Of a stretch of DNA of 64,000 bases, positions 1,387 to 47,700 are shown one piece after another. Every line of letters begins with the position of its first letter. Within the stretch, counting starts at the first letter, position 1. Position numbers and translations under genes: made by a program. The notes under the pieces were generated by a model that ran no database searches, was not told where the DNA came from, and worked only from the letters and a program-made list of their open reading frames with translations. This stretch comes from Motilibacter aurantiacus (GTDB lineage Bacteria > Actinomycetota > Actinomycetes > Motilibacterales > Motilibacteraceae), in NCBI RefSeq assembly GCF_011250645.1, contig NZ_JAANNO010000002.1, positions 394,929 through 458,928 of the forward strand. The letters are read 5' to 3'.

Positions 1387-3273
1387 TCAGCTGACCACCT
1401 CGTCGGCGTAGCACCAGCGCCAGTCCTCCCCGGGCTCGAACGAGCGGATCACCGGGTGCCCGTCAGCCTGCCAGTGCCGCGTCGCGTGCCGCCGGGGCGA
1501 GGAGTCGCAGCAGCCGACGTGGCCGCAGCCGAGGCAGAGCCGCAGGTGCACCCAGGCCGTCCCCTCCCGCAGGCAGTCCTCGCACCCCTGGGTGGTGGAC
1601 GGCGAGGTGTCGGCCGGCGCGCTCGCCAGGTGCTCGCAGGCGTTCCTCAGCACCGTGGACTCCTGCCGGCTGCCGCCCCTGCGCTCGTCCACCCCGCTGA
1701 GCAGCGTCTCCTCCAGGTCGAGGTCGCGCAGCACGGCCTGCATCACCTCGTGGTCGATCCGCCCCTCGTCCCGGGCCTTGACCAGCACGTCCCGCTCCGC
1801 GACGAGCATGGCGTGCCGCACCCGGCGGTACGCCTCGGACGGCGTCTCGGCAGCCGTCTCCCCCGACGCGTGCGAGCCGCCGCCGACGCCGAGCCGCTCC
1901 CAGGCCGCCATCGCCCGGTGGTCGGCGCCCTGGCGCAGCCGCTCCTCCACACCGTGCGGCAACGGGTGCTCGGCGACGAGCCGGTCCAGCGCCTCCTCGG
2001 CGGCCCGGACGGCGTCCTGCTTGACCGACGCCTCCTGCAGCGCGTCCTGCACCGGGTCCGGCCCCTCGATGCGCAGCATGCGGATCAGCAGCGGGAGCGT
2101 CGACCCCTGCCCGATGAGGGTCACGGCGATCACGACGAACGTCACGAAGACCAGAAGCTCGCGGTGCGGCGTCTCCTCGCTCAGCGACAGCGCGGCGGCG
2201 AGCGAGACCGCCCCGCGCATCCCCGCCCAGGAGATGACCGCCGGGAACTTCACCGTCGGCGGCGGGTCGCTGTGGCGTATCCGGGGGACCAGCCGGGTCA
2301 GGTAGGTGGCCGGGAAGACCCAGACCGGGCGTGCGACCACGACGACCGCGACCACCACGGCGGTGGCGGTCAGGACCGTGGGCAGGTCCTCGTCCAGCTC
2401 CTCGACCAGGAGCGGCAGCTGCAGCCCGACGAGCGCGAACAGCACCCCCTGGAGCAGGAACTCGATCGTCTCCCAGATCGCCCGCTGCTGCAGGCGCGCC
2501 TCCGCCGAGAGCAGGCGCGGCGACTTGTGCCCGAGGATGAGCCCGGCGACGACGACGGCCAGCACCCCGGAGGAGTGGATCTCCTCGGCCAGCGCCCACG
2601 CCGCGAACGGCGTCAGCAGCGACAGCGTGGAGCTCATGAGCGGCTCGTCGACGTGCCGGCGCACCAGGGCGACGACGTACGCCACCGCGACCCCCACCGC
2701 TGTCCCGCCGACGCTGGCGACGAGGAACTCGCCCGCGACGTCGACCGGCCCGGGCGTCCCCGGGTCCGCGATCGCCGCCGTCGCGACGCTGAGGATCGTC
2801 AGCGCGGTCGCGTCGTTGACCAGGCTCTCGCCCTCGAGCAGGCTGACCAGCCGGCGCGGCAGCCCGGTCCGGCGGGCGACAGCGGTGGCGGCGACGGCGT
2901 CGGGCGGGGCGACGACGGCGCCCAGGGCGAGCGCCGCGGCCAGCGGGATCTCCGGGAGCACCCAGTGCAGGGTGAACCCGACGGCCAGGGTGGTGAAGAC
3001 GACGAGGCCCACCGCGAGCAGCCCGATGGGGCGCAGGTTGCGCGTGAAGCCCGGCAGGGAGGTGGAGATCGCCGCGGCGTAGAGCAGCGGCGGCAGGAAG
3101 AGCGCGAGGACGACCTCGGGCTCGAGGTGGTACTCCGGGACGCCCGGGACGTACGACGCGACGACGCCGACCACGGTCAGCAGCAGCGGGGGCAGCACTC
3201 CCACCCGTCGCGCCAGCCCGTACGCGGCGGCCACGCCGACCACCAGCAGCAGAACGTCGCTGTGCGCACCCAT
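1387..3273 (-). CDS. Na+/H+ antiporter (CPA1/NhaP type) with C-terminal UBP zinc finger
   Basis: About 628 residues. The first 400 or so form a multi-pass membrane domain of the CPA1 sodium/proton exchanger family, with characteristic stretches FLPPLLYAAAI, APPDAVAATAVARR, EGESLVNDATALT and WAGMRGAVSLAAAL; the two Asp in PPDA and VNDA are the expected transport residues. A cytoplasmic tail of about 150 residues follows. The last 75 residues form a UBP-type zinc finger (C-x2-C, C-x2-C and several His, starting at CEHL and ending DWRWC). In eukaryotes that fold binds free ubiquitin C-termini; its role in bacteria is unknown. ATG 3273 is chosen because the first membrane helix follows at once. 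Proposed role: pH or sodium homeostasis. Confidence 0.9.
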   Translation of the reverse strand: MGAHSDVLLLVVGVAAAYGLARRVGVLPPLLLTVVGVVASYVPGVPEYHLEPEVVLALFLPPLLYAAAISTSLPGFTRNLRPIGLLAVGLVVFTTLAVGFTLHWVLPEIPLAAALALGAVVAPPDAVAATAVARRTGLPRRLVSLLEGESLVNDATALTILSVATAAIADPGTPGPVDVAGEFLVASVGGTAVGVAVAYVVALVRRHVDEPLMSSTLSLLTPFAAWALAEEIHSSGVLAVVVAGLILGHKSPRLLSAEARLQQRAIWETIEFLLQGVLFALVGLQLPLLVEELDEDLPTVLTATAVVVAVVVVARPVWVFPATYLTRLVPRIRHSDPPPTVKFPAVISWAGMRGAVSLAAALSLSEETPHRELLVFVTFVVIAVTLIGQGSTLPLLIRMLRIEGPDPVQDALQEASVKQDAVRAAEEALDRLVAEHPLPHGVEERLRQGADHRAMAAWERLGVGGGSHASGETAAETPSEAYRRVRHAMLVAERDVLVKARDEGRIDHEVMQAVLRDLDLEETLLSGVDERRGGSRQESTVLRNACEHLASAPADTSPSTTQGCEDCLREGTAWVHLRLCLGCGHVGCCDSSPRRHATRHWQADGHPVIRSFEPGEDWRWCYADEVVS

Positions 3274-23651: not shown

Positions 23652-23844
23652 GGCCGGACCGCCTCTCTAGGGTTGGGGTCGCCGGGTCGGCGGGTGTGAC
23701 CGGCGCGCTCCTCGCGCCGCCTCGCCGTGGACCGGAACCGTCAGCACAGTGTGCCAGACGACTCAACACGACCGCCGGGGTGACGATTCCCGGGCCGTCC
23801 GGGCTCGGCCGCGGCGTCGTCGGGGCGGCCGCCGCGGCTCAGCG
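23652..23844. other. 193-base gap upstream of rpmE
   Basis: This gap should hold the rpmE promoter and the end of the SPFH/RHH transcript. A CCCTAGAG stretch close to the rpmE ribosome binding site is the only AT-containing candidate; I see no convincing -35/-10 pair and no palindrome resembling a zinc-repressor site. Confidence 0.4.
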
Positions 23845-40618: not shown

Positions 40619-41629
40619 ATGCCTGCGCGCACACGTGACGAGCCGTCCTGTCCCGAGATCCCCGTCGCCGCCTTCTCCGACGCCTTCGAGCTGACGCCGA
40701 GCTGCCTGGCCCTCGTCGGGCGGGACGGCACGGTGATGCCCAACGCCGCGCTGCGGGCGGCGCTGCGCAGGTCCGGCACGGAGATGCTCGATCAGCTGGT
40801 GAGCAGCGTCGACTGGAGCTTCGCCTCACCGGCCCGCCCGCCCGACGGCTCCGGCCTGCGTGGGCTGCCCGTCGAGGACGGCCGTTCCGAGCTCGTCGTC
40901 CGCAGCATCCGCCCGCTCGGCGTCACGGACGGCGGGCCGGAGTGGCTGTTGCTGTGCCTGCAGGCCACCACCACTCGCCGCCGGGACGCGCTGTCGTCAC
41001 TGCTGACCCGGGACCAGCTGCTGGACCGGCTCGAGCTCGTGCTCGCGGCCGGCGCCGAGGCCGTGGGCGCGGTGGGCGCCGTCGATGTCCTCGTCGTCGA
41101 CCTGGACGACTTCAAGAAGGTCAACGACACGTTCGGGCACGTCGTCGGGGACGAGGTGCTGGCCGCCTGCGCCCAGCGCCTGCTCGAGAGCGTGCGGCCG
41201 GAGGACGCCGTGGCCCGCTGGGGCGGGGACGAGTTCGCGATCGTGCTCCCCGACGCCACCTGCCTCGACGGCCAGGCCGTCTCCGACCGGCTGGCCCGCC
41301 GACTGCGCGAGCGGGTCGCGACCTCCGCGGGGAGCATCAGCCTCTCGGCCTCGTGGGGATGGGTCAGCGCGCTGCCCGGTGAGGCGCCCGTGAGCCTGCT
41401 GAACCGCGCTGACCTGCGGATGTACGAGGTGAAGCGGCTGCACAAGCAGGCGGCCGCCGCGATCCCAACCGCCCTGCGCGAACAGCTCGAGCGCACGCGA
41501 CGACGCTCCGCGGAGCTTGCCCAGCGGGCGGCCGACATGCGGCAGCTGACCGCGCGGCGCGCCGAGCTGCTCGCCGGCGTGCGGCTCCACCGCCCGTCGC
41601 TACGGGCGGAGGAGCCGCCGCGCGGCTAG
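40619..41629 (+). CDS. GGDEF diguanylate cyclase with N-terminal PAS-like sensor
   Basis: A 336-residue protein: N-terminal PAS-like region (about 18-115), GGDEF domain (about 125-285) with intact G-G-D-E-F at 202-206 and the R-x-x-D inhibitory site R193-D196 five residues upstream, then a charged helical tail with Arg-rich coil. It should make cyclic di-GMP with product inhibition. No membrane helix, so cytoplasmic. ATG 40619 is supported by GGAGG seven bases upstream. No EAL domain gene is in the window. Confidence 0.92.
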   Translation: MPARTRDEPSCPEIPVAAFSDAFELTPSCLALVGRDGTVMPNAALRAALRRSGTEMLDQLVSSVDWSFASPARPPDGSGLRGLPVEDGRSELVVRSIRPLGVTDGGPEWLLLCLQATTTRRRDALSSLLTRDQLLDRLELVLAAGAEAVGAVGAVDVLVVDLDDFKKVNDTFGHVVGDEVLAACAQRLLESVRPEDAVARWGGDEFAIVLPDATCLDGQAVSDRLARRLRERVATSAGSISLSASWGWVSALPGEAPVSLLNRADLRMYEVKRLHKQAAAAIPTALREQLERTRRRSAELAQRAADMRQLTARRAELLAGVRLHRPSLRAEEPPRG

Positions 41630-42043
41630 CTAGAAGCGCTCCTCGCGGCCCCCGCCGAGGTCCTCCCACACCTGCTGGACGTTCTCGTACGTGCGCCCAC
41701 CCGGCAGCCCGGCCAGCTGCTGCAGGACCCGGTCGGGCGCCTGGTTCTCCTCCGCCGTGGACCGCAGCACGTCCGCCGTCGCCGGCCAGACCTCCTTGCC
41801 GAGGAACGTCGCCAGCTGGCTGCGCCCCTCGATGTCCCCGCTGTCGACGCCGGCCGCGGTACCGCCGGTCAGCGTGCCGTTCGGGTTGAGGTCGACGTCC
41901 GGCTGGTCCTCGCCCGAGGGCTCGGGGTCCTTCCACTCCTGGGCGTGCGTGGAGCGGCCGGCGCGCATCGCGCCCTCCACCTCGCCGGCCAGGGCTTCGT
42001 CCGCGCGTGCCCCGTGCTTGTCACTGCCGCGCTCGATGGTCAT
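41630..42043 (-). CDS. DUF2795 protein
   Basis: A 137-residue protein with a disordered acidic N-terminus and a C-terminal domain starting QLATFLGKEVWPATADVLRSTAEENQAPDRVLQQL, the DUF2795 pattern, ending in VWEDLGGGREERF. Function unknown. A GAGGAGG site precedes ATG 42043. It is divergent from the nucleotidyltransferase/Balon operon and has its own sigma-B/F-type promoter candidate (42118-42093), so it is likely stress-induced with that operon. Confidence 0.85.
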   Translation of the reverse strand: MTIERGSDKHGARADEALAGEVEGAMRAGRSTHAQEWKDPEPSGEDQPDVDLNPNGTLTGGTAAGVDSGDIEGRSQLATFLGKEVWPATADVLRSTAEENQAPDRVLQQLAGLPGGRTYENVQQVWEDLGGGREERF

Positions 42044-42092
42044 GCTCCGCCGTCCTCCTCTGTCGGGTCGACCCTTCGGTCGTGCCGGAGCC

Positions 42093-42118
42093 GTACCCGG
42101 GAGGGGTGCTCGGTAACG
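42093..42118 (-). promoter_or_regulatory. Sigma-B/F-type promoter candidate for DUF2795 gene
   Basis: On the minus strand CGTT (42118-42115) and GGGTAC (42098-42093) are separated by 16 bases. This fits the actinobacterial stress consensus G-N-N-T, N14-16, GGGTAC/T. The start site would lie about 43 bases upstream of the gene. Confidence 0.6.
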
Positions 42119-42121
42119 TCC

Positions 42122-42147
42122 GGTTCCGGTCGGACAGCCCGGGGTAC
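42122..42147 (+). promoter_or_regulatory. Sigma-B/F-type promoter candidate for the nucleotidyltransferase operon
   Basis: GGTT (42122-42125) and GGGTAC (42142-42147) are separated by 16 bases and end 10 bases before the ATG of the first gene. It matches the stress-sigma consensus seen in Streptomyces SigB and mycobacterial SigF promoters. It faces the DUF2795 promoter with only 3 bases between their -35 elements. Confidence 0.65.
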
Positions 42148-42157
42148 CCGATTCCTC

Positions 42158-42811
42158 ATGAGCGCGCTCGAGTCCGACCTCATCGAGACGACGAAGGTCG
42201 TCGCGGTCACGCTGAAGAAGGCCCACATCCCCTTCGCCCTGGCCGGCGGGTACGCCGTCTACGCCCGGGGCGGGCCGCCGAGCATCCACGACACCGACTT
42301 CTTCCTGCGCGAGGCGGACGTCCCGCGGGCGATCGACGCCCTCACGGAGGCCGGCCTCAAGCACGAGAGCTGCCCCGAGGACTGGCTGGTCAAGGTCTTC
42401 CACGACGACCGCCTGGTCGACCTGATCCACGCCGCCAACGGGCGCCCGGTCACCGACGCCATGCTCGCCCGCGCCGAGGAGGTCGAGGTCGGGTCCGTGC
42501 GCATGCCGGTCCTGGACGCGAGCGACATCATGATCGGCAAGCTCCTCGCGCTGTCCGCGCACCACTGCAACATGTCCCCGCTGCTGGCGGTCGCCCGGTC
42601 CCTGCGCGAGCAGGTCGACTGGGGGCGGGTCCGCGAGGAGACGGCCGAGTCGCCGTACGCCCGGGCCTTCCTCACCCTGACCGACGGGCTCGGCATCACC
42701 GCCCCTCCGGAGGGGCAGGAGGGGGTCCAGCCCGTCCACGAAGGCGTCTACGCGCTGTCCGGGACCGGGAGCCAGCCCAACCGCAGCATTTCCGAGGAGG
42801 AGAGCGCATGA
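42158..42811 (+). CDS. Nucleotidyltransferase-fold protein
   Basis: A 217-residue protein of the NTase superfamily. The signature ALAGGYAVYARGGPPSIHDTDFFLRE carries the G-G and D-x-D pattern (HDTDFF); a third acidic residue (VDLIHA) follows the next strand. It resembles stand-alone AbiEii/MNT-type NTases, some of which modify tRNA or proteins. Substrate unknown. The stop overlaps the start of the next gene (ATGA), giving tight coupling. The expression signal is a sigma-B/F-type promoter candidate ending 10 bases upstream, leaving almost no 5' leader. Confidence 0.85.
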   Translation: MSALESDLIETTKVVAVTLKKAHIPFALAGGYAVYARGGPPSIHDTDFFLREADVPRAIDALTEAGLKHESCPEDWLVKVFHDDRLVDLIHAANGRPVTDAMLARAEEVEVGSVRMPVLDASDIMIGKLLALSAHHCNMSPLLAVARSLREQVDWGRVREETAESPYARAFLTLTDGLGITAPPEGQEGVQPVHEGVYALSGTGSQPNRSISEEESA

Positions 42812-43935
42812 CCCGCCTGTCCCACCTTCGCGACCTGTACTCCGCGAAGGGGCCGTTCGTGACCGCGTACCTCGACGCGACACGCTCAACCGAGACGGGC
42901 GCCCACGAGGTCGAGCTGCGCTGGCGCGCCCAGCGCGAGCAGCTCGCGGAGGCCGGCGCTCCCGACGCGCTGCTCGACGCGCTGGAGCCGGTCGCGACCG
43001 CTCCGACCGGCGTGCCGGGCGAGAACACCCTCGTCCTCGTCGGCGCCGGCACCGAGGTGCTGTTCTCCTCGGCCGTCCCCGGGCGCATCCAGGAGCGGGC
43101 CACGTACGCCCCGGTCCCCGACCTCGGCCCGCTGGCCCTGGCCCTCGGCCAGACGCTGCCGTACGTCCTGGTCCACATCGACCGCACCGGCGCCGACATC
43201 GACGTGGTCGGCCCGCTCGGCCAGTCCGAGGAGCACACCGAGGTCAAGGGCGGCGAGCACCACATCAGCAAGGTGCACGCCGGCGGCTGGTCGTACCGGC
43301 GCTACGAGCACCGGGCCGAGAACCTCTGGGAGTCGAACGCGAGCGACGTCGCCCAGCAGATCGACACGATCCTCGCCGAGAGCTCGATCCCGCTGCTCCT
43401 GGTGACCGGCGACACCCGCGCCAACGAGCTGTTCCAGCAGCACCTCGGCACGCGCGGCAAGGAGGCGGTCGTCACGCTCGACTCCGGCGGCCGGGCGGCC
43501 GGCTCCGACGAGCAGGCCGTGCAGGAGGACGTGCGCCAGGCGATCGCCGCCAAGGTGGTCCGCGACAGCCAGGACCAGGTCGAGCTGTTCCGCGAGCAGA
43601 CGGGCGCCGGGCACGGCGGCGCGCTCACCGGGCGCGCGCAGATCGTGGGGGCGCTGCAGAAGGCGCAGGTGGACACGTTGCTCGTCACTGCGGACTTCGC
43701 CGACGACACCACGGTCTACGTGGGGCCGGACCCCTCCCAGATCGCGGTCGACGAGGCCGAGCTCAAGGCCATGGGCGTCGACGACGGGTTCGCGGCGCGC
43801 GCCGACTCGGCCCTGCTGCGGGCGACGATCGCCACCGACGCCGGCGTCGTGGTCGTGCCCAAGGGCCGGCTGCAGCTGGAGGACGGGGTCGGCGCCCTGC
43901 TCCGCTACTCCGACGAGTCGACCCCGTCGGCGTGA
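42808..43935 (+). CDS. Balon/Rv2629-type ribosome hibernation factor (baeRF, Vms1-like family)
   Basis: A 375-residue protein of the bacterial archaeo-eukaryotic release-factor-like family, recognised by the pattern GPFVTAYLDATRST at the start, VLVHIDRTGADIDVVG, GGWSYRRYEHRAENLWESNA, LLLVTGDTRAN and the end GVGALLRYSDE, the same as in M. tuberculosis Rv2629. Family members (Balon; Msmeg1130) bind the ribosomal A site during starvation or cold and hold it in hibernation. No GGQ motif is seen, consistent with no peptide release. GAGGAGGAG precedes ATG 42808. Middle gene of a three-gene overlapping operon under a stress-type promoter. Confidence 0.88.
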   Translation: MTRLSHLRDLYSAKGPFVTAYLDATRSTETGAHEVELRWRAQREQLAEAGAPDALLDALEPVATAPTGVPGENTLVLVGAGTEVLFSSAVPGRIQERATYAPVPDLGPLALALGQTLPYVLVHIDRTGADIDVVGPLGQSEEHTEVKGGEHHISKVHAGGWSYRRYEHRAENLWESNASDVAQQIDTILAESSIPLLLVTGDTRANELFQQHLGTRGKEAVVTLDSGGRAAGSDEQAVQEDVRQAIAAKVVRDSQDQVELFREQTGAGHGGALTGRAQIVGALQKAQVDTLLVTADFADDTTVYVGPDPSQIAVDEAELKAMGVDDGFAARADSALLRATIATDAGVVVVPKGRLQLEDGVGALLRYSDESTPSA

Positions 43936-44588
43936 CCGCTGTCGGCTCCGTCCTGCCGGGGACGCTGCAGGTCTGGAGCGACGTCGCCTGCCCCTGGGCG
44001 GCGCTCGCGGTCGTCCGGCTGCGGGCCGCGCGCGAGCGGCTGGGCCTCGAGCTCGACGTGCGCGTCGACCACCGGGCGTTCCCGCTCGAGCTGGCCAACG
44101 GCCGGCCCGTGCCGCCGCTCGCGGACGAGGCCGTCGAGGTCCTCGCCCGCGAGCCGGCCTTCGGGACACGCCCCTGGTCCGGGGAGCACGGGGACTGGCC
44201 GGGCAGCTTCCTCGACGCGCTCGCCGCGGTGCAGGCCGCCAAGGAGGAGCGGGCCGGAGGGCTGCCGGCGAGCGAGGCGCTCGACTGGGCGTTGCGCCGC
44301 GCCCTGTTCGCGCAGAGCCGTCCGATCGGCACCCCGGGCGAGGTCCTGGCCGTCGCCCGCGAGGTCCCCGAGCTCGACGTGGACGCGCTCGAGGGGCAGC
44401 TGGACGCGGGGCGGGACGCGGTGCGGCGCGACTGGGAGCTGACGGGCGAGCTCCGGATCGAGGGCAGCCCGCACGTACGCCTGAGCGACGGGTCGGCCGT
44501 GTTCAACCCCGGCATCGGGGACGACGGCAGCGACGACCCCGGGGTGTGGGACGAGCTGCTGCGCAGGGCGCTCGCGCCGGAGGGCTGA
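43932..44588 (+). CDS. DsbA/FrnE-family protein with a single active-site Cys
   Basis: A 218-residue thioredoxin-fold DsbA/FrnE family protein by VWSDVACPWAALAVVRLR, DHRAFPLELANG, ALDWALRRALFAQSRPIG and IEGSPHVRLSDGS. FrnE-type enzymes have C-x-x-C; here it reads C-P-W-A, so only one Cys remains and it can hardly be a dithiol oxidoreductase. It may be a glutathione- or mycothiol-related transferase or a redox-inactive member. GTG overlaps the stop of the Balon-type gene (GTGA). Confidence 0.85.
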   Translation: MTAVGSVLPGTLQVWSDVACPWAALAVVRLRAARERLGLELDVRVDHRAFPLELANGRPVPPLADEAVEVLAREPAFGTRPWSGEHGDWPGSFLDALAAVQAAKEERAGGLPASEALDWALRRALFAQSRPIGTPGEVLAVAREVPELDVDALEGQLDAGRDAVRRDWELTGELRIEGSPHVRLSDGSAVFNPGIGDDGSDDPGVWDELLRRALAPEG

Positions 44589-44600
44589 GGTCCGGGGCCT

Positions 44601-44639
44601 GCCTCCCGCCCCCCGCCTGCGCCGCAGGGGGCGGGAGGC
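44601..44639 (+). terminator. 13-bp stem-loop terminator
   Basis: GCCTCCCGCCCCC and GGGGGCGGGAGGC pair perfectly around a 13-base loop, starting 12 bases after the DsbA-like gene. It closes the nucleotidyltransferase/Balon operon. No T-run follows. Confidence 0.75.
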
Positions 44640-44659
44640 CCGTATCGGACACAAGCAGA

Positions 44660-44688
44660 TAGCCTGGCCTACCGGCAGCCCAGGCCAG
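44660..44688 (+). promoter_or_regulatory. Candidate -10 and leader hairpin of kgd
   Basis: TAGCCT at 44660-44665 would set the start near 44672. The adjacent inverted repeat CTGGCCT/AGGCCAG (44664-44670, 44682-44688) overlaps it and lies at the 5' end of the leader. No convincing -35 was seen. Confidence 0.35.
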
Positions 44689-44717
44689 TCGAGGTTCGAA
44701 AGTAGGCGAACACCGCC

Positions 44718-47700
44718 GTGTCGCAGTCTCCGTCCCCGCAGGATGACCCCACGGAGGGCTTCGGGCCCAACGAGTGGCTCGTCGCCGAGATGTACGAGAA
44801 GTACCTCCAGGACCCCGCCTCGCTGGACAAGGCGTGGATCGGCTTCTTCGAGGACTTCAAGCACACCCACGGGGACACGGGACCGAACGGCGCGAGCCGG
44901 CCCGCAGCGCCCGCGCCCTCGTCCAGCTCGTCGTCCAGCTCGGCGTCCAGCTCGGCGCCGGCCCAGCGCACCGCGCCGTCCCAGCGCCCGGCGCCGCAGG
45001 GCACGACCGCTCCCCCGCCCTCGGCCCCCGCCCCGACCCCGACGGCTGCGCACCCGGTCGCCCCCGGCGCCCGGGCCGACGCCCCGACGACGACGACCCC
45101 GGCGGCGGCCCCCGTCCCCTCGGCGACGCCGTCCGCGGCGCGCGAGGTGTCCACCACGCCGAACCAGCCGCCCCGCCCGGCGGCCACCCAGGCCAAGGCC
45201 GGCGGCTCGTCGGTGACCCCGCTGCGCGGCCCGGCCGCCCGGGTCGTGACGAACATGGAGGCCTCGCTCGAGGTCCCCACCGCCACCAGCGTGCGCGCGG
45301 TGCCGGCGAAGCTGCTCATCGACAACCGCATCGTCATCAACAACCACCTGGCCCGCGGCCGGGGCGGGAAGATCTCGTTCACCCACCTGATCGGCTACGC
45401 GGTCGTGCGCGCCGTCCAGGGCATGCCGGACATGAACGTCTCGTACGGCGAGGCGGACGGCAAGCCCGCGGTCATAGGCCCCGAGCACGTCGGGCTCGGC
45501 CTGGCCATCGACATCTCCAAGCCCGACGGCACCCGCCAGCTCCTCGTCCCGGCGATCAAGGCCGCGGACACGATGGACTTCGCCCAGTTCTGGGCGGCGT
45601 ACGAGGACATCGTGCGGCGGGCGCGCGGCGGCAAGCTGACCGCCGACGACTTCGCCGGCACCACGATCAGCCTGACCAACCCGGGCACCATCGGCACCGT
45701 CCACTCGGTCCCGCGCCTGATGAAGGGGCAGGGCACGATCGTCGGCGTCGGGGCGATGGACTACCCGGCCGAGTACCAGGGCGCCTCTCCGGAGACGCTG
45801 GCCCGGCTCGCGGTCAGCAAGGTCCTCACCCTCACCTCCACCTACGACCACCGCGTCATCCAGGGCGCGCAGTCCGGGGAGTTCCTGCGTCGCGTCCACC
45901 TGCTGCTGCTGGGCGAGGACGGGTTCTACGACGACATCTTCCGCGCGCTGCGGATCCCCTACGAGCCGATCCGGTGGGCCGCCGACGTCGCGTGGTCGCA
46001 CGAGAACGACGTCACCAAGCAGGCCCGCGTCCAGGAGCTCATCCACGCGTACCGGGTGCGCGGCCACCTCATGGCCGACACCGACCCGCTGGAGTTCCGC
46101 CAGCGCTCGCACCCCGACCTGGACATCACCAACCACGGCCTGACGCTGTGGGACCTCGACCGTGAGTTCGCGACGGGCGGGTTCGGCAAGAAGCCGATGG
46201 CGACCCTGCGCGACATCCTCGGGGTGCTGCGCGACTCGTACTGCCGCCGCGTCGGCATCGAGTACATGCACATCCAGGACCCGGAGGAGCGGCGCTGGAT
46301 CCAGTCGAAGGTCGAGTCGCCCCACACCAAGACCGACACCCAGGAGCAGCTGCGCATCCTGCGCCGGCTGAACTCCGCCGAGGCGTTCGAGACCTTCCTG
46401 CAGACCAAGTTCGTCGGGCAGAAGCGGTTCTCCCTCGAGGGCGGGGAGTCGCTGATCCCGCTCGTCGACGCGCTGCTGTCCGAGGCTGCCGACGCCGGGC
46501 TCGACGAGGCAGCGATCGGCATGGCTCACCGCGGCCGGCTCAACGTGCTCGCGAACCTCGCCGGCAAGTCGTACGCGCAGATCTTCCGTGAGTTCGAGGG
46601 CAACCAGGACCCCAAGTCGGTCCAGGGCTCCGGCGACGTGAAGTACCACCTGGGCACGCAGGGCACGTTCACCGCCAACAGCGGCGCCAAGTGCAAGGTC
46701 TACCTCGCGGCCAACCCCTCGCACCTGGAGGCGGTCGACCCCGTCCTCGAGGGCATCGTGCGTGCCAAGCAGGACCGGCTGAACAAGGGCGGCGGCGAGT
46801 CCGGCTACACCGTGCTGCCCGTGCTCATCCACGGCGACGCGGCCTTCGCCGGCCAGGGCGTCGTGGCCGAGACGCTCAACCTCTCCCAGCTGCGCGGCTA
46901 CCGCACCGGCGGCACCGTCCACGTGGTCGTCAACAACCAGGTCGGCTTCACGACCTCGCCCGCGTCCTCGCGCTCGTCGTTCTACTCGACCGATGTGGCG
47001 CGCATGATCCAGGCGCCGATCTTCCACGTGAACGGCGACGACCCCGAGGCCTGCGTCCGGGTCGCCCGCCTGGCGTTCGAGTTCCGGCAGAAGTTCCGCA
47101 AGGACGTCGTCATCGACATGGTGTGCTACCGCCGCCGTGGCCACAACGAGGGCGACGACCCGTCGATGACGCAGCCGCTGATGTACTCCCTGATCGAGCA
47201 GAAGCGCTCGGTGCGCAAGCTCTACACCGAGGCGCTCATCGGACGCGGCGACATCACCGTCGAGGAGGCGGAGCAGGCGCTGCGCGACTTCCAGGAGCAG
47301 CTCGAACGGGTCTTCAACGAGACCCGCGAGACCGGCGCGGCGGGCTCCGGTGCGCTCGAGGCCCCGGACGAGCAGCGCCAGACCGGGCACGCGCACGCGC
47401 TGCCCACCGCGGTGTCGCCGGAGGTCATCAAGCGGATCTCCGACGCCCACGTGGCGATGCCCGAGGGCTTCACCGTGCACCCGAAGCTGCGTTCGCTGCT
47501 CGAGCGGCGGGCGGCGATGTCGACCGAGGGCGGCATCGACTGGGCGATGGGCGAGCTGTACGCCTTCGGCTCGCTGCTGCTCGAGCGCGTCCCGGTGCGG
47601 CTGGCCGGCCAGGACAGCCGGCGCGGCACCTTCGTGCAGCGCCACGCCGTGCTGACCGACCGGCACACGGGCGACGAGTGGACGCCGCTGGCGAACCTCT

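Follow-up and report, generated by a model that had tools for sequence, protein, structure and literature searches.

We find that a 64,000-nucleotide stretch of the Motilibacter aurantiacus genome (the window, meaning the whole stretch that was analysed) very likely contains a bidirectional SigF-type promoter. Stress acting through this promoter would switch on, together, a DUF2795 gene on one side and, on the other, an operon encoding a nucleotidyltransferase, the ribosome hibernation factor Balon and a DsbA-like protein. Judged by the conservation described below, the arrangement probably represents a genuine stress unit built around Balon that has not been described before, and the original prediction, which proposed such a unit from the DNA letters of the window, is largely supported. 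What turns on Balon-type hibernation, reported in 2024, is only partly known in actinobacteria.

The two promoter elements occupy the 114-base gap (42044-42157) between the DUF2795 gene, whose ATG lies at 42043 on the minus strand, and the nucleotidyltransferase gene, whose ATG lies at 42158 on the plus strand. On the minus strand, CGTT (42118-42115) is followed after 16 bases by GGGTAC (42098-42093); on the plus strand, GGTT (42122-42125) is followed after 16 bases by GGGTAC (42142-42147). The two -35 elements stand three bases apart (42119-42121). The gap length, motifs and separation given by the original prediction are thus exact by coordinates; its title called the promoters "facing", which is wrong, since they are divergent, as its own description of them as back to back says. 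Both elements fit the published SigB/SigF consensus, a GGGTA[CT] -10 box with GTT or GNNT 14-17 bases upstream (PMC8346170, PMC4694148, PMC7693655), in agreement with the predicted match to the actinobacterial general-stress consensus. The register used in the literature, GTTA-N15-GGGTAC for the leftward and GTTC-N15-GGGTAC for the rightward promoter, is the better notation, as GTTN-N15 is the published form of many Mycobacterium smegmatis SigF promoters; the SigF promoters of that species also include GGTT-N16 and CGTT-N16 forms and instances 8-11 bases before the start codon (PMC4694148). GTT-N14-18-GGGTA[CT] matches only this pair on both strands of the 64-kb window, in line with the earlier statement of no other good match at a gene start there. 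The elements and their predicted start sites are as follows.

42093..42098, minus strand: -10 box GGGTAC of the leftward (DUF2795) promoter, found by motif search and kept in Motilibacter deserti with its -35 element
42115..42118, minus strand: -35 element CGTT of the leftward promoter (canonical GTTA, 42117-42114), from motif search and conservation
42122..42125, plus strand: -35 element GGTT of the rightward promoter (canonical GTTC, 42123-42126); GTGT-N15 in two further genomes of the family
42142..42147, plus strand: -10 box GGGTAC of the rightward promoter, with the ATG 10 bases on, from motif search and conservation
42153..42156, plus strand: predicted rightward start site, placed at the usual 6-8 bases from the -10 box, giving a nearly leaderless transcript
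42083..42087, minus strand: predicted leftward start site, placed from the sequence, giving a leader of about 40 bases

The rightward ATG is not preceded by a Shine-Dalgarno sequence, and the predicted leftward leader contains a GGAGGA ribosome site (42058-42053). The rightward -10 box is part of a palindrome, GGGTACCC (42142-42149), so that a third GGGTAC appears on the minus strand, with no -35 partner. We found no sigma-70-type promoter in 41600-44760 and no intrinsic terminator in the region. Elsewhere in the window, two RNA elements score just over their gathering thresholds: a guanidine-II (mini-ykkC) riboswitch at 3102-3147 (33.5 bits, threshold 32) and, on the minus strand, an actinobacterial L31 ribosomal protein leader at 23677-23741 (35.3 bits, threshold 35).

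Closely related genomes retain these elements at the gene starts. In M. deserti (loci L040 and L104) both promoters are intact, three-base separation included, and the roughly ten substitutions in the aligned core all fall outside the motifs. Two other members of the family have a strongly diverged gap (L041) or a split one (L042), and in both the nucleotidyltransferase gene has GGGTAC or GGGTAG exactly at -16 from its ATG, preceded by GTGT-N15. All four genomes that share this arrangement therefore have the rightward -10 box at one and the same position (GGGTAC in three, GGGTAG in one). The DUF2795 genes of L041 and L042 likewise carry GGGTAC exactly at -16 from their own ATG, and in L042 this box is still present where the DUF2795 gene lies about 900 bp away. 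In a third genus of the family (G002), where a different contig carries the nucleotidyltransferase, DUF2795 and Balon point away from each other and GGGTAG occurs on both strands of the gap between them. A group of genomes of family f17 (L242, L247, L249 and L258) also have DUF2795 and Balon in divergent orientation, with a GGGTAG box on the DUF2795 side and a different conserved sequence, AGGGGTTCCTTACC and variants of it, on the Balon side.

We then compared the sequences upstream of each gene family across Actinomycetes with shuffled controls and with other genes. For DUF2795, 80 named loci were fetched and 79 had usable upstream sequences; GTT-N14-18-GGGTA is present in 34 of these, where shuffles average 0.3 (at most 2) and the reverse strand shows a single match, and the narrower GTTT-N14-17-GGGTA is present in 30/79, against 0.0 in shuffles. 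Other genes of the same loci carry the first pattern in 6/459 cases (1.3%). Every locus from Nonomuraea (10), Microbispora (5), Microtetraspora (3) and Plantactinospora (3) has the motif. Among 30 nucleotidyltransferase upstreams, GNNT-N14-17-GGGTA occurs in 25 (shuffle mean 0.65, maximum 4; reverse strand 7) and bare GGGTA in 27 (shuffle 3.4), in many cases 10 bases ahead of the ATG, the distance seen in the window; the corresponding rates at other genes are 5-7% and 13-15%. Upstream of Balon, (GNTT or GTNT)-N14-17-GGGTA occurs in 14/59 (shuffle mean 0.2, maximum 2; reverse strand 1) and bare GGGTA in 32/59 (shuffle 4.4). In relatives, putative -10 boxes, and mostly -35 boxes too, thus recur at these genes much more often than in shuffled sequence and more often than at other genes.

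Several observations weigh against the proposed SigF-type promoter. The motif is absent from the DUF2795 genes of cultured Frankia and of Geodermatophilaceae in the locus set. The stricter pattern is found in only 14 of the 59 Balon upstreams, where most of its matches come from two families (f19 and f20), and the -35 element is the weaker half in most of the distant relatives. Bare GGGTA is also enriched on the reverse strand of the nucleotidyltransferase upstreams (13/30), to which the self-complementarity of GGGTACCC contributes. Loci that share a genus are not independent samples, although the pattern nonetheless spans several families. Finally, the motif is only slightly enriched over the whole genome. 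In the 4.59-Mb genome of M. aurantiacus, GTT-N15-17-GGGTAC has 26 matches against 20 for the reversed pattern, and GTNT-N14-17-GGGTAK has 33 against 18, both weak excesses; because these counts lie near those of the reversed patterns, a lone match is weak evidence, and conservation is the more telling test. The first of these counts listed no further divergent pair, and at that density simple arithmetic gives about 0.004 divergent pairs within ~60 bp per genome. We rejected the genome-wide counts as proof of promoters, the excess being too small, and did not use match classes from a home-made gene caller, which was unreliable (it called the window site "inside" a gene). Elsewhere in this genome, a hemerythrin-like gene has GTTG-N14-GGGTAC about 73 bases upstream (L023, G000:C14:1529-1552, minus strand); hemerythrin genes of M. 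smegmatis are SigF dependent (PMC4694148).

How do other explanations compare with a stress-responsive promoter pair? The best of them, which we nonetheless consider improbable, is that just one promoter is active, or that both are constitutive, with an incidental link to stress. Consensus matches by themselves are no proof of activity, and the weak genome-wide excess is compatible with this view; against it, both sides are independently conserved, even where the two genes lie apart. Marginally less probable still is that the conserved GGGTAC boxes are two operator half-sites for a transcription factor, with transcription by the housekeeping polymerase. The inverted GTACCC...GGGTAC arrangement and the palindrome at 42142-42149 would suit an operator, but single-sided boxes without a partner recur at a fixed spacing from start codons and with GTT or GNNT 14-18 bases upstream, the boxes of L042 are about 900 bp apart, and the region yielded no sigma-70-type promoter for the housekeeping polymerase to use. 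Chance matches in a GC-rich gap are very improbable: some 20 reversed-pattern matches occur per genome, yet conservation across families, the shuffle controls, and the spacing and position of the pair largely refute this explanation.

The proposed bidirectional SigF-type promoter has a plausible cognate factor. The genome encodes one SigB/F/G sigma factor above cut-off (TIGR02980, 319 vs 234 bits). SigF models are its nearest matches, and it is immediately preceded by an RsbW-like gene (55.6 of 145 bits, below the cut-offs of the RsbW models). Mycobacterial rsbW-sigF has the same gene arrangement (PMC7693655), and the pair points to a cognate sigma factor with an RsbW-type anti-sigma factor. 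Known regulons provide further parallels. MSMEG_1131, numbered next to the Balon homologue MSMEG_1130, is SigF dependent with GTGT-N16-GGGTA (PMC4694148), and hypoxia-induced M. smegmatis promoters have GGGTA -10 boxes (PMC6448022). Balon genes are reported to lie in stress operons, often beside RaiA (PMC10901736). In form, GTTN/GNNT-N14-17-GGGTA[CT], the window promoters resemble SigF and SigB promoters of M. smegmatis and Streptomyces coelicolor (PMC4694148, PMC8346170, PMC7693655); unlike those, the predicted pair is joined back to back, its -35 elements only three bases apart. Our literature search returned no report of this paired promoter or of DUF2795 as a Balon partner, and only side mentions of a link between SigB and ribosome hibernation in Streptomyces.

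The genes flanking the gap, given below, are packed into what appears to be a single rightward operon and a divergent DUF2795 gene.

41630..42043, minus strand: DUF2795 protein, 137 amino acids (PF11387, 4e-14)
42158..42811, plus strand: MenT1-like nucleotidyltransferase, 217 amino acids (weak match to PF14907; likeness to MenT1 by profile and structure model)
42808..43935, plus strand: Balon/Rv2629-type ribosome hibernation factor, 375 amino acids (NF052289, baeRF_family2, PDB 8v9k_z)
43932..44588, plus strand: DsbA-like thioredoxin-fold protein, last gene of the operon (PF01323, 4e-9)

The nucleotidyltransferase stop and the Balon start overlap by four bases (ATGA, 42808-42811), as do the Balon stop and the DsbA start (GTGA, 43932-43935), and this gene order is kept in three relatives. 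DUF2795 lies directly upstream of Balon, operonic with it, in 24 Streptosporangiales loci; the two are divergent in five other loci and convergent in one (L165). Across the class, a long-form DUF2795 gene lies within ~4 kb of Balon, co-directional or divergent, in 17 of 60 Balon loci, where chance would give well under one of the 60. In Frankia, the nucleotidyltransferase is found 1-4 kb from DUF2795. Because of these neighbourhoods, all three pairs of DUF2795, Balon and nucleotidyltransferase are linked somewhere, DUF2795-Balon being the most widespread. The proposal that the genes form one unit consequently fares differently for its parts: it is strong for DUF2795 and Balon, which are recurrent neighbours, while the nucleotidyltransferase is seen at the operon head in this family alone (two of its three genera searched). 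What was not expected of the unit is the link between DUF2795 and Balon, together with an operon headed by a MenT1-like gene.

These features suggest how the unit could work. Stress would free the RsbW-controlled SigF homologue, and RNA polymerase would then transcribe DUF2795 leftwards and the nucleotidyltransferase-Balon-DsbA operon rightwards. Because the predicted start sites are only ~70 bp apart, polymerases at the two starts probably compete for the site. By analogy with Rv2629 and Msmeg1130, for which ribosomal A-site occupancy and translation silencing are established, Balon would occupy the A site and silence translation. The nucleotidyltransferase, judging from its modelled fold, would add to the shutdown, probably by modifying tRNA or some other small target, and DUF2795, as a conserved partner of Balon, would most likely aid its action on ribosomes or their release. 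A bolder idea, which we offer tentatively and hold to be doubtful, is that long-form DUF2795, with its ERGSDKHG...EEWRDPEP N-terminus, is a dedicated Balon partner across Actinomycetes and forms, with the MenT1-like nucleotidyltransferase, a SigB/F-controlled module that arrests both ribosome and tRNA. If the unit is real, Balon joins the general-stress regulon of several actinobacterial families, the uncharacterised DUF2795 gains a role as its conserved partner, and a MenT1-like enzyme is added.

The Balon assignment draws on several matches. The window protein scores 263.3 bits against NF052289, whose equivalog cut-off is 320, in a match that covers positions 1-357 of 357; only 15 of 297 genomes of the class reach that threshold. 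It also matches baeRF_family2 (147 bits) and PDB 8v9k_z (1e-29). Unlike the release factor eRF1, its translation contains neither a NIKS nor a GGQ string, and PMC10901736 likewise describes Balon/Rv2629 factors as lacking both, in contrast to eRF1. It resembles the products of the Rv2629 and Msmeg1130 genes as a probable Rv2629-family protein, matched over its full length, in a predicted stress-type operon, and differs from the Balon loci of that paper in its DUF2795 partner and its nucleotidyltransferase operon head, neither of which is named in the passages searched. The N-terminal half of the DUF2795 protein is disordered (ERGSDKHG...EEWKDPEPSGEDQP), and the folded DUF2795 domain spans residues 66-137, with pLDDT >90 over residues 71-130 of the structure model. 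Its fold has no convincing match in the PDB (best Z 3.9; Foldseek E values of 2 and above), and its profile has none among PDB sequences.

The nucleotidyltransferase resembles, as a remote relative, the tRNA-extending toxin MenT1 of Mycobacterium tuberculosis. A profile search of PDB sequences returned MenT1 (Rv0078A) at 1.6e-6 and nothing else convincing, and the structure model aligns with MenT1 at Z 15.0 over 170 residues. The Pfam AbiEii/DUF1814 domain of MenT toxins is not detected in the protein, which has only a sub-threshold PF14907 match (30.0 bits, cut-off 31.2). D45, D47 and D88 are invariant in the family alignment (A3), and D41 and K137 of MenT1 correspond to D45 and K128 of the window protein. 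The likeness to MenT1, the toxin of the MenAT1 pair (PMC10435456), thus extends from fold to a profile match with D41 and K137 aligned. It departs from MenT1 in that T39 is not kept and no adjacent antitoxin gene is seen, the neighbours being Balon and, divergently, DUF2795. The equivalent of K137 is also not conserved across the family, being T in Frankia, and a toxin-like activity on tRNA is therefore uncertain. MenT1 lies near the dormancy-regulon gene Rv0079 (PMC10435456), a setting that recalls the position of the window nucleotidyltransferase within a predicted stress unit.
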